Assembly (NCBI RefSeq): GCF_003610695.1
Contig: NZ_RAQH01000003.1
Location: forward strand, 62,001-126,000
Direction: 5' to 3'
Source of the DNA: Epilithonimonas arachidiradicis
Lineage (GTDB): Bacteria; Bacteroidota; Bacteroidia; Flavobacteriales; Weeksellaceae
DNA length: 64,000 nt
Positions within the stretch are counted from its first letter, which is position 1; each line of letters starts with the position of its first letter. Under the pieces are notes generated by a model. It saw nothing but the letters and a program-made list of their open reading frames with translations, was not told the origin of the DNA and searched no databases. Positions 1,068 through 46,753 of the stretch are shown here, one piece after another. Position numbers and translations under genes: made by a program.

Positions 1068-2087
1068 ATGAAAAGAAAAGTCCTATTGATATACACCGGC
1101 GGAACCATCGGGATGGAAAAAGATTACAACACAGGAAGCCTTGTTCCATTCGATTTTTCAACTATTTTCAAAAGAATTCCGGAAATGAATCTTATTGAAT
1201 GCGAAGTTTCTGTTCATCCATTCGAAAATCCGGTCGATTCGTCCGATATGGGACCTCGGGAATGGCGGATGATAGCAGAATGGATTCATAAAAATTATGA
1301 TGCTTTTGATGGTTTTCTGATTCTTCACGGCACAGATACGATGTCTTACACGGCTTCTGCACTTAGTTTTATGTTGAAGAATCTTGGTAAACCTGTGATT
1401 TTGACGGGTTCTCAATTGCCAATTGGAGATTTGAGAACGGATGCAAAAGAAAATCTGTTGACGAGCTTATATTACGCCAGTCTTTATGAAAATGATGATG
1501 CTGTTATAAAAGAAGTGGCAGTTTACTTTGAGTACAAACTTCTGCGTGGAAACCGAAGTCTGAAATATTCTGCCGAATTTTTTGACGCTTATCAAAGTCC
1601 TAATTATCCTATTCTTGGACAGTCCGGCGTTCATCTTAATATCGAAAAAGATTTGCTTTGGAAACCAGAAGGCGAATTCGAACTGGACACTTATCTCAAT
1701 GAAAATGTTTTGTTCTACAGAATCTTCCCCGGAATGAACTTCGAGTCTTTATTGGAACTCAAAACGCCGGAAGCAATTGTCTTACAGGTTTTTGGTTCGG
1801 GAACTATTTTTAATAGCGATAAAACCCAAAATGTACTTCAGGAATTGAGAAACCGTGGAATTGAAATTGTAGTGATCAGTCAATGTATTTCCGGCGGCAT
1901 CAGCTTCGGGAAATACAGCAACAGTAATATTTTTACAAAAGTAGGAGCAATCAGCGGAAAAGATATGACGGCTGAAGCAGCAATTACCAAAGTGATGCAT
2001 ATTTTGAAGAATCCGAACTATCATAAACCTTTTTCGGAGACTTTTACAGAAACTATTTGCGGAGAAATTTCCGAAGACTTTCAATAA
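1068..2087 (+). CDS. ansA: Type I (cytoplasmic) L-asparaginase
   Basis: Hydrolyses asparagine to aspartate and ammonia. The 339-residue length fits the cytoplasmic type I family. The nucleophile motif TGGTI is at residues 10-14, and the second catalytic block HGTDTMSYTASAL follows around residue 87. There is no signal peptide, unlike periplasmic type II enzymes. The ATG at 1068 puts the first strand of the fold right at the N terminus, as is usual. The gene stands alone: a dispersed repeat lies upstream and a tRNA gene downstream. Confidence 0.93.
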   Translation: MKRKVLLIYTGGTIGMEKDYNTGSLVPFDFSTIFKRIPEMNLIECEVSVHPFENPVDSSDMGPREWRMIAEWIHKNYDAFDGFLILHGTDTMSYTASALSFMLKNLGKPVILTGSQLPIGDLRTDAKENLLTSLYYASLYENDDAVIKEVAVYFEYKLLRGNRSLKYSAEFFDAYQSPNYPILGQSGVHLNIEKDLLWKPEGEFELDTYLNENVLFYRIFPGMNFESLLELKTPEAIVLQVFGSGTIFNSDKTQNVLQELRNRGIEIVVISQCISGGISFGKYSNSNIFTKVGAISGKDMTAEAAITKVMHILKNPNYHKPFSETFTETICGEISEDFQ

Positions 2088-2092
2088 ACGTT

Positions 2093-2121
2093 TTGAAACT
2101 TCGGATATTTCATTATATTTG
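2093..2121 (+). promoter_or_regulatory. Bacteroidota-type promoter of tRNA-Ser
   Basis: TTG at 2093-2095 and TATATTTG at 2114-2121, 18 bp apart, match the TTG/TAnnTTTG promoter of this phylum. The tRNA starts 12 bases downstream. Confidence 0.7.
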
Positions 2122-2132
2122 CAACCTCAATT

Positions 2133-2219
2133 AGAGAGGTGTCCGAGTGGTTGAAGGAGCTACCCTGGAAAGGTAGTATACGGGTAACTGTATCGAGGGT
2201 TCGAATCCCTTCCTCTCTG
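2133..2219 (+). tRNA. tRNA-Ser (anticodon GGA)
   Basis: The acceptor stem AGAGAGG pairs with CCTCTCT at 2212-2218, with G2219 as the discriminator base. The D region is GTCCGAGTGGTTGAAGGAG, the anticodon loop is CTGGAAA with anticodon GGA, and the T-arm contains GGTTCGAATCC. A long variable arm between the anticodon and T stems marks it as a class II tRNA, as expected for serine. The 3' CCA is not encoded in full. Confidence 0.95.
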
Positions 2220-2240
2220 CAGAGTTGAAAAACTTAAACA

Positions 2241-2275
2241 AAAAAGCCATCTAAAATTTTAGACGGCTTTTTTAT
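2241..2275. terminator. Bidirectional terminator after tRNA-Ser and the lipoprotein gene
   Basis: AAAAAGCC at 2241-2248 pairs with GGCTTTTT at 2265-2272, and a second inner stem (TCTAAAA/TTTTAGA) extends the hairpin. T runs lie on both strands, so it can serve the tRNA and the convergent lipoprotein gene. Confidence 0.8.
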
Positions 2276-2290
2276 TTATGCAAATCTAAG

Positions 2291-2836
2291 TTACTTCACC
2301 TTTTCCAAAAGGTACAGCTTCCCGCCGGAGAAAGCCAATTTAGGCATCAGATTACCTTCCAGGATCATTGTTTTGCTGTTGATGTCGATTACAGAAATAT
2401 AATTGCTGGAGTTATATTCTATATAGTTTTCTTTCTCTTTGGTTAAAGGATTTTTGCCAAATTCGAAATCATATTTTTCCCAATCCACTTTTTCTGTGCT
2501 GCAATGCACAGGTTTGAATTTCGATTTTTTGGAATTGAAGATAATCTGGTCAAAACCCTCGGTGCATTCGCTCTCGAAAGAACTGTCCGGATTCTGGTCA
2601 TTAGTGAAAGCCTCAAAAGAACCTTTGTAAACACCAATTACTTTCCAGGTTCCGTCGATACGGTCTTCATCAATTTTTCCGTTAGCTTTGCTGACTGCCC
2701 AGCTTACGCCTTTCACGGTTCCTTTTACCGTTTTGTAGCCGACTTTAGCAACACCTTTTACCACTTTTGCGGCCGTAGAAACAACACAGGATTGCAGGAT
2801 TGCGACGGCAAAAACAGATAGAATTATTTTTCTCAT
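2291..2836 (-). CDS. Predicted lipoprotein, lipocalin-like
   Basis: Function unknown. A 181-residue protein with a signal peptide ending in the lipobox ILQSC, so it should be lipid-anchored in the envelope. A stretch rich in Val, Lys and Gly follows (residues about 22-55), then IDGTWKVIGVYKG, which resembles the first strand of lipocalin-like lipoproteins; the rest looks like beta strands. It is transcribed toward tRNA-Ser and shares its terminator. No partner gene is visible. Confidence 0.75.
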   Translation of the reverse strand: MRKIILSVFAVAILQSCVVSTAAKVVKGVAKVGYKTVKGTVKGVSWAVSKANGKIDEDRIDGTWKVIGVYKGSFEAFTNDQNPDSSFESECTEGFDQIIFNSKKSKFKPVHCSTEKVDWEKYDFEFGKNPLTKEKENYIEYNSSNYISVIDINSKTMILEGNLMPKLAFSGGKLYLLEKVK

Positions 2837-3204
2837 AACATCAGTTTTTGATATACGAATATAGATACTTTATAATCATAATTCATAATGATTTGAAAAT
2901 TAATGTTTCAAAGACATGTTTTTTTATCTAAGGCTGATAGTAATAATTAATCTTGTTTTATAATTAATTGAAACATAATTAATTATAATTATGTTTTTTT
3001 TACTAAATTTTTTTTATAATTAAAATGTATATTCATTCCGAATTATCCATTCTCCAATATTACCGGCTGACACCATTTCATCTGCTTCTATTATTGCGAA
3101 ATTGCATTTTGTTTTATTTTCGTTATTGTTAATTATTTTATTTGAATTTGAATAATATTTAGTTAATTAATCAATTTATATTATTTATTAATAATAGGCA
3201 ACAG
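2837..3204. other. AT-rich intergenic DNA without an intact gene
   Basis: Very AT-rich stretch with runs such as TAATTAATTATAATTAT. On the minus strand, a short open stretch ending near 3030 reads like a protein tail (EADEMVSAGNIGEWIIRNE), but it has no start and is too short to name. With the Crp/Fnr fragment just downstream, this looks like decaying DNA. Confidence 0.5.
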
Positions 3205-3309
3205 ATGGCGAATCTTACAGGGCTTTGTGTAGAAACCACAATCAGAACGCTTAAGGCGATGGAAAAAAAGAATCTCCTGAAAATCCGGAATAGAAAAATT
3301 CTGTATTAG
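3190..3309 (+). pseudogene. C-terminal remnant of a Crp/Fnr-family regulator
   Basis: The frame ending in TAG at 3307-3309 encodes NNRQQMANLTGLCVETTIRT and then LKAMEKKNLLKIRNRKILY. This is the recognition helix and final strand of a Crp/Fnr winged helix (pattern RQxIAxxTGxxxETxxRxLxxMEKxxLI). The cyclic-nucleotide-type domain that should precede it is absent; AT-rich DNA stands in its place. Only about 40 codons remain, so it is read as a decayed gene rather than a functional peptide. Confidence 0.65.
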
Positions 3310-3363
3310 AATTATTTTTGAAAGATATGATTTGGATCATAAACTGACAAATGTCATATTGTT

Positions 3364-3371
3364 TACCTTTG
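3364..3371 (+). promoter_or_regulatory. Possible -7 box upstream of the 99-residue gene
   Basis: TACCTTTG matches TAnnTTTG. No clear upstream TTG is seen at the right distance. If used, it gives a leader of about 185 bases that includes the 3503-3539 hairpin. Confidence 0.35.
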
Positions 3372-3502
3372 GTATACAATAACTTAAAAGTCTCTTTTTA
3401 AGAGAATGCTTTAGACTTTATATTATGCTTCTTCGTTTTTTAATGAATCAAAAATGTTGAGGTAGATAATTCACAATAGACTCTTATCAATCCATTCTTT
3501 TC

Positions 3503-3539
3503 GAAATTACCTCTCTTGATGAGTTTGAGAGGTAATTTC
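3503..3539 (+). promoter_or_regulatory. Perfect 13-bp hairpin in the leader of the 3566 gene
   Basis: GAAATTACCTCTC at 3503-3515 pairs perfectly with GAGAGGTAATTTC at 3527-3539 across an 11-base loop. No strong T run follows on either strand, so it may be a weak terminator of the lost regulator gene, or a leader structure. The next start codon is 26 bases away. Confidence 0.55.
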
Positions 3540-3565
3540 TTCTAACCTTCTAAAATATATATGAT

Positions 3566-3865
3566 ATGAACTGTGAAAAGCTACAAAAATCTCTTAAGTC
3601 CGAAAGTTTCCTGAATGTTTTGAACAATGGTAAAAAATTCGAGAAAGAAGCAGTGATCTATGCCAAGGAAATCAACCGTAATATTTTCCTTCTGTTTGTT
3701 ATTTTAAAGGATTTGAAAATGGAAAAAATCCGTGCATCGATTGCTAATTTTGATTGTTTTGAAAGTATTGGTATCAAAGATCCGATCCAGCTGATGTTTC
3801 ATCTTACCATTACCAAGAAGGAAGATTTCCATTATTTTGAAAAATATGTTAATGTTTCGGTTTGA
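3566..3865 (+). CDS. Hypothetical protein, 99 residues
   Basis: Not recognised. A small soluble protein without signal peptide or membrane segments, of mixed charge, with a hydrophobic stretch NIFLLFVILKDL in the middle. It precedes the CinA-like gene by about 70 bases in the same direction and may share its transcript. The frame is well populated with ordinary codons and ends cleanly, so it is probably real, but no function is offered. Confidence 0.6.
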   Translation: MNCEKLQKSLKSESFLNVLNNGKKFEKEAVIYAKEINRNIFLLFVILKDLKMEKIRASIANFDCFESIGIKDPIQLMFHLTITKKEDFHYFEKYVNVSV

Positions 3866-3937
3866 AAACAAGGTCTGGCAAAGCTTTTGTTAGGCTGAGA
3901 TTAATAATAATATTTAACCACATCAAAAATCAAACTT

Positions 3938-10829: not shown

Positions 10830-11981
10830 ATGTTTTTTTTTAATAACAATGAAAATATTGAATTATTTGAAAAGTCAATATCAGATGAAGATGTTAGCAT
10901 TCTAGTAGGTGTAAATGGATGCGGGAAAAGTACTTATTTAAATGATATTGCAAAACACCATTTAAATAAAGGGAAACCAGTCATATGTATTGCAAATACT
11001 ATATATGATAAATTTACATTAAAGTCATATAAAGCTAAAATACTTAAAAGTTCAAAAGGAAAAAATATTGCTAAGCAGTCTATTACGCAAGTTATAAATT
11101 TACTAGATAGTTATGACTCTAAGAGCTTTTTTAATCTTTCTAACGTATTTAATTATATAGATTTTAAGCCCATTATTGAATTTAATATACATAGTTTAAA
11201 TTCGGATTACAGAGAATTGATTTTAATGTCAAATATCTTTAATGATTCTGAAAAAGAAGACCTAGTAATCTCATTAAACAACTCTTTTGAATTATTTTAT
11301 GAAGGTGATACTAGATTTGTATTGGATTTTAGCAATAATAATGATTATGAAAAATATAAAAACAGATTATTTTTGAGAATTTTAAAATATGAAAACAAAC
11401 TAAAAAAAATTAATGTTTTAAAAAAAATAGATGTAACATTATTTAAGAATGATAATTTTTTTCTATTAAGTAATGCTAGTTCAGGGGAATTAACATTAAT
11501 AGCATCTCTAATATATATAAGTGCAAATATTCAAAATGAATCTGTAATCATAATTGATGAACCCGAAAACAGCCTTCATCCAAAATGGCAGATTGAGTAT
11601 GTTAAAAAATTAATTGACTTATTTTATTTCTATCAACCTAAAATAATAATTGCAACGCATTCTCCCTTAATTATTAATGGTGCAGAATTAAATATTAAAA
11701 ATGTCAATATTTTTAAAGGAAAATCATTTGGTGAATTCATTAAACAACCTGAAGATTTAAAGAATGTTGAAGAAATATATGATTATTATTTTGACGTCAC
11801 GACTCCGGAAAATAGATTTATTTCGCAATTTGTAATTGATAAATTCAATTTATTGACTGAACTAAAAATCTCATATTCAAATTTTGAAAACATCATTAAT
11901 GGCCTAATAAATAATTCGTATGATGTTCAACAAAAAAATGCATTGTTAGGAATTTTAGATTTAGCAAAAAATTACTCTTAG
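10830..11981 (+). CDS. AAA/ABC-type ATPase of a Septu-like defence operon (PtuA-like)
   Basis: A 383-residue ATPase of the OLD/RecF-like group. Walker A GVNGCGKST is at residues 27-35, the ABC-type signature NASSGEL near 215-221, Walker B VIIIDEPENSLHP at 239-251, and the switch His in ATHSPL near 277. The middle is helical. It is followed after one base by an HNH nuclease gene, the PtuA-PtuB order of Septu anti-phage systems, in which ATPase and nuclease form one complex. The DNA is far more AT-rich than its neighbours, a sign of transfer. No reverse transcriptase is next to it, so it is not a complete Ec78-type retron. Exact subtype not determined. Confidence 0.75.
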   Translation: MFFFNNNENIELFEKSISDEDVSILVGVNGCGKSTYLNDIAKHHLNKGKPVICIANTIYDKFTLKSYKAKILKSSKGKNIAKQSITQVINLLDSYDSKSFFNLSNVFNYIDFKPIIEFNIHSLNSDYRELILMSNIFNDSEKEDLVISLNNSFELFYEGDTRFVLDFSNNNDYEKYKNRLFLRILKYENKLKKINVLKKIDVTLFKNDNFFLLSNASSGELTLIASLIYISANIQNESVIIIDEPENSLHPKWQIEYVKKLIDLFYFYQPKIIIATHSPLIINGAELNIKNVNIFKGKSFGEFIKQPEDLKNVEEIYDYYFDVTTPENRFISQFVIDKFNLLTELKISYSNFENIINGLINNSYDVQQKNALLGILDLAKNYS

Positions 11982-11982
11982 A

Positions 11983-12597
11983 ATGGTTTATACAAGTGAA
12001 GAACTACAGATTATCGAGCAAGCAAAATCTGAAGGTGGAGATATTTGGAAAAATAAAATATTAGATCCAATTAAGAGAAGGATTAAAACTCATTACAGGA
12101 CAAATGATTCTGAGCAGTGTTGCTATTGTAAAAGAGATTTTCAAGATGAATTTAATATGGTGATTGATATTGAACATATTCTTCCAAAAGCTAATTCTTT
12201 ATTTAAAGAATATATGTTTGATATTGAAAATTTGAACATTTCGTGTAAAAGATGTAATATGACTATCAAAAATGATAGAATCGATTTTATTGTTGATCTA
12301 AAAACAATAAAGCCTGATTATAGAATTTCAAATAAATACTTTTTTATACACCCTAATTTTGATAATTATTTTGACCATATAGACTATGAAGCTACGATTA
12401 GGAATAATAAAAAATTAATAAAATATATAAAAAAAACTGAAAAAGGAAAGTATACTTATAATTATTTTCATTTAGACAGAATAGAAATAGATACATTTGA
12501 TAATGTACAAGGGGTTAAAATTCAGGGCGTTGAATTAAATCCTGATTTACCTGAAGATACAAAGTCTGCTTTTAAAGCTTTAGCAACTAAACTATAG
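11983..12597 (+). CDS. HNH endonuclease of a Septu-like defence operon (PtuB-like)
   Basis: A 204-residue HNH nuclease. The two zinc knuckles are C46-x2-C49 (CCYCKRDF) and C88-x2-C91 (SCKRCN). The catalytic His is in DIEHILPKA (H65) and the central Asn in ENLNISCKRCN (N83). The order CxxC...EHILPK...NL..SCxxCN matches PtuB and retron-associated HNH proteins. Start and stop are one base from the ATPase gene, so the two are translationally coupled. The C-terminal half is not recognised. Very AT-rich like its partner. The expected role is nucleic acid cleavage upon phage infection, gated by the ATPase. Confidence 0.75.
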   Translation: MVYTSEELQIIEQAKSEGGDIWKNKILDPIKRRIKTHYRTNDSEQCCYCKRDFQDEFNMVIDIEHILPKANSLFKEYMFDIENLNISCKRCNMTIKNDRIDFIVDLKTIKPDYRISNKYFFIHPNFDNYFDHIDYEATIRNNKKLIKYIKKTEKGKYTYNYFHLDRIEIDTFDNVQGVKIQGVELNPDLPEDTKSAFKALATKL

Positions 12598-14749: not shown

Positions 14750-14757
14750 TATATTTG
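14750..14757 (+). promoter_or_regulatory. -7 box of the riboswitch transcript
   Basis: TATATTTG matches TAnnTTTG and would start transcription about 10 bases before the cobalamin aptamer. No clear TTG is seen at the usual distance upstream. Confidence 0.6.
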
Positions 14758-14771
14758 CACTCATAAAAATA

Positions 14772-14842
14772 AAGGGTGAATCGTGTGCAAGTCACGAACT
14801 GTCGCGCAACCGTGATTCGCTGAGGCGGAAAGTCGGATCCCC
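14772..14842 (+). ncRNA. Cobalamin riboswitch (short form)
   Basis: The conserved core is visible. CGTG-TGCAAGT-CACG (14782-14796) is the stem-loop equivalent of CCAG-TGCGAAT-CTGG in the E. coli btuB switch. It is followed at once by the B12-box form CTGTCGCGCAACCGTGA (14799-14815), then GGCGGAAAGTCGGATCCCC (14824-14842), matching the AAGTC...ACC block. The large peripheral arm of class I is missing, so it is a compact form. The gene directly downstream is an acyl-CoA thioesterase rather than a B12 transporter. Confidence 0.8.
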
Positions 14843-14917
14843 AAAAACTTTCGCGATTTGAAGTAGAAATTTGATTTTCTATTCATTTCAATGTTTAATC
14901 TAAATTCTAAAAAAGAA

Positions 14918-15307
14918 ATGAATTACGAAGCCAAAATTAAGGAGTCGGAAACCCACGTCTTCAAAGTTGTATTCCCAAATACAACCAATCATCATAATAC
15001 AATGTTCGGAGGAAAAGTAATGGAAATGATGGATGAAGTGGCTTTTATGACTGCTACTCGTTTCGCCAGAAAATCCTTTGTAACAGTAAGTTGTGATAGA
15101 ATAGATTTTAAAAAACCGATTCCTGCAGATACTTTGGTAGAATTGATTGGAAAAGTAAAATATGTTGGGAATACCAGCGTAAAAGTCAATATTGAAATAT
15201 TCATCGAGGAGATGTATGCTGACACTCGTGAAAAAGCTGTTTCAGGAGATTTTACTCTTGTCGCTATTGATGAAAATAAAAAGCCGGCAAGAATCTTTGA
15301 AAACTAG
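14918..15307 (+). CDS. Acyl-CoA thioesterase, hotdog fold (YciA/BACH-like)
   Basis: Hydrolyses acyl-CoA to free acid and CoA. Hotdog-fold features: NTTNHHNTMFGGKVMEMMDE, where the family has N-x-G-x-xFGG-x-xM-x-xMDE with the catalytic acid, then FVTVSCDRIDFKKPIPADT and a final strand. The start MNYEAKIKE after an A-rich stretch is chosen; the ATG nine codons upstream (14891) is possible. It follows the cobalamin riboswitch with no other gene between, so its expression should fall when B12 is plentiful. Substrate chain length cannot be told from sequence. Confidence 0.85.
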   Translation: MNYEAKIKESETHVFKVVFPNTTNHHNTMFGGKVMEMMDEVAFMTATRFARKSFVTVSCDRIDFKKPIPADTLVELIGKVKYVGNTSVKVNIEIFIEEMYADTREKAVSGDFTLVAIDENKKPARIFEN

Positions 15308-15313
15308 AAATAA

Positions 15314-15341
15314 AAAAGCTTACTGTATTCAGTAAGCTTTT
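15314..15341. terminator. Bidirectional terminator after the thioesterase gene
   Basis: AAAAGCTTACTG at 15314-15325 pairs perfectly with CAGTAAGCTTTT at 15330-15341, loop TATT. Confidence 0.9.
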
Positions 15342-20911: not shown

Positions 20912-20969
20912 TGTTTGCGTTTAGAGATTATATTTTTGGAGCAACAACATTCAACTTATTATCAACATT

Positions 20970-21044
20970 CTAACCCGCTTTCCGTTGCAATCTTTTTGTT
21001 TTCCGAGGGAAAACAAAAAGGATTTCCACTACAATCGGGGCTAT
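20970..21044 (+). repeat. Dispersed intergenic palindromic repeat, copy C
   Basis: Short copy: CTAACCCGCTTTCCG at the left and GGATTTCCACTACAATCGGGGCTA at the right in pieces. The centre is a perfect 13-bp hairpin, CTTTTTGTTTTCC (20992-21004) with its inverse (21008-21020), loop GAG. Confidence 0.8.
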
Positions 21045-21209
21045 GTTGAAGATTTGTCTATCGATTGACCAAAAACTATTCTACAAATATAAATATTATA
21101 AATCTTTCAAAGGAATAAAATAAAGACTTTGAAACGCTTTTTGATTTTTATCACAGAATAAAAATCCATTACAATGTAGAATTAATGCATTTTTAAATTA
21201 ACAATAGAA

Positions 21210-46632: not shown

Positions 46633-46647
46633 GTGATAATTTGTAAA

Positions 46648-46753
46648 TAGCCCCGATGGGAACGGCATCCTTTTTTGTCTTTTCTGATAATTTTCTTTCG
46701 ATGACAAAATGTCTAAGACAAAAAAGATATAGTGGACAGCGGGATTAAGCTCC
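46648..46753 (-). repeat. Dispersed intergenic palindromic repeat, copy F (reverse)
   Basis: On the minus strand: GGAGCTTAATCCCGCTGTCC at the left, TTTTTTGTCTTAGACA and AGACAAAAAAGGATGCC in the middle, CCATCGGGGCTA at the right. The centre holds an extra loop of about 35 bases. It lies between ndk and rpe. Confidence 0.8.

Follow-up and report, generated by a model that had tools for sequence, protein, structure and literature searches.

A compact cobalamin (B12) riboswitch aptamer almost certainly stands, to judge from its sequence, directly 5' of an acyl-CoA thioesterase (TE) gene in Epilithonimonas arachidiradicis, within the 64,000-nucleotide stretch of DNA analyzed here (henceforth the window; Table 1). 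An initial annotation had read this DNA as a B12 aptamer followed by a hotdog thioesterase, and both are present, the former by its fold and a sub-gathering Rfam match and the latter by its match to PF03061. As an explanation of the whole, we lean modestly toward a compact cobalamin riboswitch that would act by blocking the start codon, with TE being made in B12 shortage and freeing CoA.

Table 1. Features of the riboswitch–thioesterase locus (positions in the window)
Feature	Position	Strand	Basis
Presumed promoter −7 element TATATTTG	14750–14757	+	TAnnTTTG pattern
Compact cobalamin riboswitch (aptamer P3–P6, P13, kissing loop)	14771–14869	+	R1 model match
P3, 5' strand (partner 14838–14842)	14774–14779	+	95% of cells paired
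L5 half of kissing loop (pairs with 14852–14856 in L13)	14802–14806	+	5 pairs, at sequence level
P3, 3' strand	14838–14842	+	Alignment fold
P13 stem-loop (stem 14847–14851 with 14860–14864)	14847–14864	+	Alignment fold
Proposed anti-sequestor, 5' arm UUUGAAGUAGAAA	14857–14869	+	Predicted from duplex energy
Proposed sequestor AUUCAUUUC (complementary to GAAAUGAAU, 14915–14923, over the start codon)	14881–14889	+	Predicted from duplex energy
Acyl-CoA thioesterase, hotdog fold, 129 aa (stop included)	14918–15307	+	PF03061, starts in relatives
Terminator-like inverted repeat 3' of the gene	15314–15341	both	Consensus scan

Scanning the window with Rfam models at their gathering scores did not find a B12 riboswitch. 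In a permissive scan of 351 bases, RF01482 (AdoCbl) matched positions 14761–14876 of the forward strand with 38.3 bits (E 1e-5) against a gathering score of 50, and in a whole-genome search RF00174 matched the same place with 24.1 bits (E 6e-4) against a gathering score of 31.5. The covariance-model search suggested by the initial annotation therefore gives matches with low E values, both under their gathering scores, and the window aptamer does not reach either Rfam threshold. A covariance model built from 28 TE leaders (R1) scores the aptamer at 112.9 bits, the window leader being itself a member of the training set. Among riboswitches 5' of TE, the Rfam gathering score was passed by three of the nine scanned rows of the compact alignment and by all nine of the other TE loci scanned. 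A compact B12 aptamer can thus escape the standard Rfam cut-offs, as do six of the nine compact leaders scanned and that of the window.

The consensus fold of the 28 aligned compact leaders, predicted without reference to Rfam, consists of a P3-P4-P5-P6 four-way junction and P13, and the conserved core letters of the cobalamin riboswitch are present together with all four helices P3–P6. The aptamer extends beyond 14842 to approximately 14869 and takes in P13 and the kissing loop, giving an element of approximately 99 nt in which P1 is not visible. Standard pairs occupy 96.1% of the pair cells in the 28 leaders (P13 included) versus 87.1% after shuffling, and 88 cells carry double changes versus 28 in shuffles; in each case none of 500 shuffles was as high. 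When partners are slid along the alignment, pairing is at most 43.9%. Two of our five measures are less clear, with nine pairs changed on both sides versus 7.2 in shuffles (55 of 500 shuffles as high) and 29 further pair types versus 24.9 (5 of 500). In the outer P6 stem all five pairs show double changes, and one pair at the base of P6 is CG in 14 leaders and UA in the other 14. The outer pair of P3 is GC in 14 leaders, AU in 10, CG in one, and UA in one (unpaired in two), and that of P13 is AU in 15, GC in seven, and GU in two (unpaired in four). The L5–L13 kissing loop is present at the sequence level with 97.9% of its cells paired across the 28 leaders, and it shows no covariation because it is nearly invariant. 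The minimum-energy fold predicted for the whole leader differs from the aptamer fold and is not significant (z −0.76).

The protein encoded behind the aptamer passes the PF03061 (4HBT) model with 58.8 bits versus a cut-off of 20.6. It reaches only 51.8 bits on the YciA equivalog model NF007970, whose cut-off is 162, and is therefore not YciA by that model. The 4HBT domain is shared with hotdog thioesterases of the YciA/ACOT7 type (PDB 2gvh, 2eis, and 1yli), two of which (2gvh and 2eis) also have a TNHH/TNHY...FGG stretch in common with the window protein. Coding most likely starts, from comparison of related sequences, at ATG 14918 (MNYEAK...) rather than at 14891: a longer frame beginning at the latter position was corrected by comparison within the genus, because the stretch aligned to it contains TAA in 8 of 18 genus genomes, whereas none of the 18 has one from 14918. 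An in-frame ATG lies at the 14918 position or within one codon of it in all 28 aligned loci. Two loci of the genus g28 (L155 and L159) have a longer TE frame with approximately 50 extra N-terminal residues. We call TATATTTG a promoter element on the basis of the pattern TAnnTTTG, which we take to be the Bacteroidota-type −7 consensus. This pattern occurs within approximately 25 nt 5' of the aptamer start in 11 of 12 aptamer-bearing loci tested (the exception is L026) and 5' of the TE gene in all eight aptamer-free loci tested; the same strand of the 64-kb window contains 52 copies of it. The terminator-like inverted repeat follows the gene, which suggests a one-gene transcript.

The pairing was surveyed in 246 Weeksellaceae genomes using an E threshold of 1e-40 for TE, and R1 matches were found in 182 of them and TE in 178. 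A survey of which gene follows the aptamer in relatives had been proposed in the initial annotation, and TE is the next gene for 134 of the 150 R1 matches listed: 111 have a listed TE on their own strand 39–156 nt downstream, and 23 more have TE directly next, a preference that is partly built in because R1 was trained on leaders known to precede TE. The other 16 listed matches precede cobT (9), metE (4), a gene for a DUF6580 membrane protein (2), and a gene for a T9SS-tailed protein (1). The genes metE and cobT are known members of the B12 regulon, and the R1 element is thus also found in front of cobalamin-riboswitch targets. Beside the copies tested, metE was recognized from its first residues in L138, L139, L142, and L173, and cobT in all its loci except L140. 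In the genus g21 of this family (L138–L140, L142, L144, L146, L149, L150, L153, L154, L156–L158, L165, and L170), the compact B12 switch is also 5' of metE, cobT, the DUF6580 membrane protein gene, and the gene for the T9SS-tailed protein of 523 aa; the latter two proteins might serve B12 uptake.

R1 matches were not listed for 34 TE loci; 20 of these loci have a riboswitch directly upstream, which in 19 scores at least 47.8 bits with R1; the remaining one, L197, scores 21.9 bits with R1 and 114.7 bits with RF00174. A riboswitch therefore stands directly before TE in 153 of the 178 TE-bearing genomes (110 + 23 + 20). In four more it lies one gene further up, with metE (G089 and G112) or nrdB (G039 and G062) in between, and in 20 of the 178 it was not found before TE, a count that leaves out G241. 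With Rfam models alone, a riboswitch is recognized 5' of TE in 12 of the 18 loci of one scan and 6 of the 20 of another. The 20 aptamer-free genomes comprise 11 of Epilithonimonas, 5 of the genus of Riemerella, and G035, G052, G054, and G120; for the 11 Epilithonimonas genomes, absence refers to a whole-genome R1 search with stricter filters and to scans of the TE loci. TE itself is present in 18 of the 23 genomes of Epilithonimonas. In E. hungarica and E. mollis the aptamer is gone and only scraps of its 3' arm are left. The aptamer is found widely in the family, and for that reason we read its absence as loss and not as gain.

Outside this survey, we collected 80 named TE-encoding loci, 55 of which have an R1 match upstream of TE (25 of the 55 are training rows). 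The riboswitch directly precedes TE in 35 of the 55. In 12 others metE lies between the two, followed by fabH in three and by a CWC protein gene in two; the rest have a CWC protein gene (4), a Diphthami_syn_2 gene (2), a TonB receptor gene (1, weak match), or an unclear ORF (1) in this place. The partner families were tested with profiles on samples, and others were assigned from their first residues: metE in L058, L061, L062, L064, L065, L071, L073, L075, L080, and L083; CWC in all loci except L056; fabH in L058 and L065; nrdB in L224 and G039; and Diphthami_syn_2 in L079. The order riboswitch-nrdB-TE of G039 and G062 recurs in G261, and riboswitch-nrdB-nrdA-TE is seen in G348. Bacteroidota outside Weeksellaceae thus also carry TE after metE, nrdB, or nrdB-nrdA downstream of B12 riboswitches. 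TE also lies behind nrdA in L039, L042, L047, and L067, where no riboswitch was found within the stretch scanned. G247, a genome of another family, has TE and no mutase match, and no riboswitch was found in the 4.7 kb before its TE. A phylum-wide survey at E 1e-35 yielded TE in 9 of 148 genomes, too few to give a frequency. A Cys-rich CWC gene between a B12 riboswitch (or metE) and TE was observed in L050, L056, L060, L081, L061, and L071, and was tested with Pfam in L056. In L075 the metE behind the riboswitch (1583–3915) consists of two overlapping frames, indicating a frameshift or a sequencing error. TE is thus wired to B12 riboswitches either directly or behind metE, nrdB, nrdB-nrdA, a TonB receptor gene, or a CWC protein gene. 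The classic isozymes that work without B12 are MetE and class I ribonucleotide reductase, and TE therefore recurs among genes needed in B12 shortage, which suggests that it belongs to the B12-shortage response of these bacteria.

What TE would do in that response may be linked to B12-dependent mutases. When B12 is short these enzymes stop, and propionyl-CoA and methylmalonyl-CoA should build up. TE would then hydrolyze short or branched acyl-CoAs piled up behind the idle B12 mutases, most likely propionyl-CoA or methylmalonyl-CoA, and the hydrolysis would free CoA. The genome of E. arachidiradicis encodes the large subunit of methylmalonyl-CoA mutase (1253.8 bits versus a cut-off of 876), a short relative whose best match is the small-subunit model (138 bits versus a cut-off of 617), and an IcmF-like fused mutase (1367 bits versus a cut-off of 1500, on a truncated piece). 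It also encodes MetH, and it has no match to PF08267, the family of the MetE N-terminus. Among 177 TE-bearing Weeksellaceae genomes, 156 of those with a mutase are riboswitch-linked and 15 are not, whereas among those without a mutase one is linked and five are not (Fisher p 6e-5, with no correction for kinship; three of the five unlinked mutase-free genomes are from one genus). This table leaves out G241 and keeps G052, which is 56% complete and without which p is 5e-4. The mutase-free genomes with TE were searched again at E 0.001; for the 18 mutase-free genomes that lack TE, the call is that made at E 1e-100. At this threshold 220 of the 246 family genomes have mutase genes, which leaves the co-occurrence test with little power. 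Two observations count against our explanation. The 11 Epilithonimonas genomes in which the aptamer was not found have both TE and a mutase. Against the mutase link itself, G089 has riboswitch-metE-TE without any mutase match; TE may simply have been inherited in this genome, or the link to mutases may be mistaken. The B12-linked CoA rescue put forward in the initial annotation stands as far as the aptamer leading TE and the presence of mutases and MetH are concerned, and is weakened by G089; in our judgment the chances that TE performs mutase-related CoA rescue are evenly balanced.

The strongest competitor, which we regard as rather unlikely, holds that TE is a B12-shortage gene that acts together with MetE, FabH, or NrdAB in the metabolism of methionine, lipids, or deoxynucleotides, for example by adjusting the acyl-CoA pool when the supply of methyl groups or deoxynucleotides is limiting. 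The operon partners of TE are consistent with it, in that metE, metE-fabH, nrdB, nrdB-nrdA, and CWC genes are among them and mutase genes are not, and so is the gene order in the mutase-free G089. However, TE stands alone directly behind the riboswitch in 35 of the 55 named loci and in 153 of the 157 linked Weeksellaceae genomes, and the partners differ by lineage, so that what metE and nrdAB have in common is B12 independence.

In the Rfam clan CL00101, to which RF00174 and RF01482 belong, the window element has counterparts for the P3–P6 junction, the core letters, P13, the L5–L13 kissing loop, and, through its relatives, the B12-regulon targets; unlike them it measures approximately 99 nt without P8–P12 arms or a visible P1, scores below gathering, and has a thioesterase as its target. 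The window lacks the P8–P12 extension of class I, and its P6 stem closes within approximately 25 nt. As described in the available part of PMC11260477, class II (a and b) cobalamin riboswitches likewise have no P8–P12 extension, but the GGAA in J3/4 and the UCU in J6/3 that mark class IIb are not plainly seen in the window when compared by eye with that description. With P8–P12 absent and J6/3 short, class I selectivity cannot be assumed, and class IIa is described in the same part of PMC11260477 as preferring methyl- and hydroxocobalamin. It is nevertheless improbable that the RNA senses a cobalamin relative, a corrinoid other than AdoCbl, or another ligand altogether, as it has the core, the kissing loop, and the regulon of a B12 switch.

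From comparison of these loci, we consider it highly probable that B12 represses TE, and we give start-codon sequestration an even chance of being the mechanism. With cobalamin bound, the L5–L13 kissing loop would hold P13 shut, as its anatomy implies, and the closed P13 would withhold UUGAAGU from the anti-sequestor; the freed AUUCAUUUC could then pair with GAAAUGAAU over the start codon and block translation. Without cobalamin the anti-sequestor would form, the start would be freed, and TE would be made. The arm UUUGAAGUAGAAA overlaps the 3' strand of P13, so that P13 and the anti-sequestor are mutually exclusive, and it can pair with the stretch UUUCUAUUCA, which holds positions 14881–14885 and runs into AUUCAUUUC. 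The predicted anti-sequestor duplex of the window has an energy of −7.2 versus a shuffled mean of −5.4 (fraction 0.117); 16 of the 28 leaders are at a fraction of 0.1 or less, and 12, including the window, are above it. For the predicted sequestor duplex of the window the energy is −9.2 versus a shuffled mean of −6.0, a value reached by 0.040 of dinucleotide shuffles, whereas by contiguous helix length 83 of 500 mononucleotide shuffles are as long, a signal that is modest across the leaders. By duplex energy, 18 of the 28 compact leaders, which are relatives and not independent and in which the best duplex can lie off the ATG (as in L027), are at 0.1 or less for the sequestor; the 10 above 0.1 are L016, L022, L026, L027, L030, L031, L032, L033, L037, and L038. 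Both sides of the proposed pairing have changed in L029 and L031 (GUUCAUU with AAUGAAC) and in L036 (UAUUCAUUUU with AAAAUGAAUG). Among leaders with longer riboswitches, from Chryseobacterium and others, 22 of 25 are above 0.1 and 3 are at or below it. Since the longer riboswitches fail and the contiguous helices are weak, we rejected start-codon sequestration as a general rule and regard it as plausible for the compact class only. A consensus scan for a transcription terminator found none between the aptamer and the start codon.

According to the available part of PMC10653944, competition between P13 and an antiterminator was tested by mutation in the metE corrinoid riboswitch of Priestia megaterium. 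There, as proposed for the window, the 3' strand of P13 can join another hairpin instead, which leaves the gene on when ligand is absent, but the riboswitch controls a terminator, whereas in the window the target is predicted to be the start codon. Two mycobacterial B12 switches are described in the part of PMC11260477 available as translational OFF switches, with the start region of metE occluded. An activating switch, in which bound cobalamin would turn TE on, has a precedent in the cobT corrinoid riboswitch of A. halodurans, which activates according to the same part of PMC10653944; we hold it to be quite improbable here, given that the same R1 element precedes metE in relatives and that TE lies behind metE or nrdB in operons, genes that are most sensible in B12 shortage.

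That the aptamer is the relic of a lost receptor gene, the alternative offered in the initial annotation, recalls the order riboswitch-TonB receptor-TE of L041, where the riboswitch is weak (25.6 bits, E 0.007), but it has a negligible probability and is refuted by the comparison: 153 of the 178 family genomes with TE retain the pair, and compensatory changes maintain the fold; where the aptamer has been lost, as in E. hungarica and E. mollis, only the 3' scraps remain. Deletion of a receptor gene at this locus was likewise rejected, as the TE leader of relatives precedes TE itself. The two other B12 riboswitches of the E. arachidiradicis genome precede receptors of the TonB type (L001 and L002); the L001 receptor piece scores 98.2 bits on the TonB-B12 model, under the cut-off of 599.7, and the L002 receptor was assigned by reading only. 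A mobile origin was also considered and rejected, there being no match in the plasmid collection. Elsewhere in the window, an AAA ATPase and HNH pair adjoining hutU (10830–12594, forward strand; PtuA 352 bits, PtuB 241 bits) resembles a Septu pair for defence against phages, and two Flavo-1 RNAs score above the Rfam gathering score (20967–21046, reverse strand, and 46645–46750, forward strand).

B12 riboswitches are described in the available part of PMC3766115 as controlling B12 synthesis, uptake of B12 and cobalt, and B12-independent isozymes, and that of PMC9723704 reports a riboswitch before a TonB receptor gene. A word search did not find "thioesterase" in the main text, as far as available, of PMC3766115, PMC9723704, or PMC9600662, and in the passages seen of papers containing both "cobalamin riboswitch" and "thioesterase" the two terms are not connected. 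Our literature search, which covered mainly the main texts of open papers, listed none in which a thioesterase is described as controlled by a B12 riboswitch; as far as we have seen, TE as a target gene of B12 riboswitches and the compact variant are both new. On comparative grounds the riboswitch–TE pairing is real and conserved, and it is therefore very likely functional. We tentatively propose that Bacteroidota possess, besides import, synthesis, and isozymes, a "damage control" arm of the response to B12 starvation in which TE would free the CoA pool when B12-dependent acyl-CoA mutases stall, and, as part of the same tentative reading, that TE in Weeksellaceae is often under the control of a minimal riboswitch, one that tends to fall below the Rfam cut-offs. 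The repeated placement of TE under B12 riboswitches suggests that cells starved of B12 have one more need, the clearing of acyl-CoAs, and the pairing assigns this conserved enzyme a putative role that can be tested directly.
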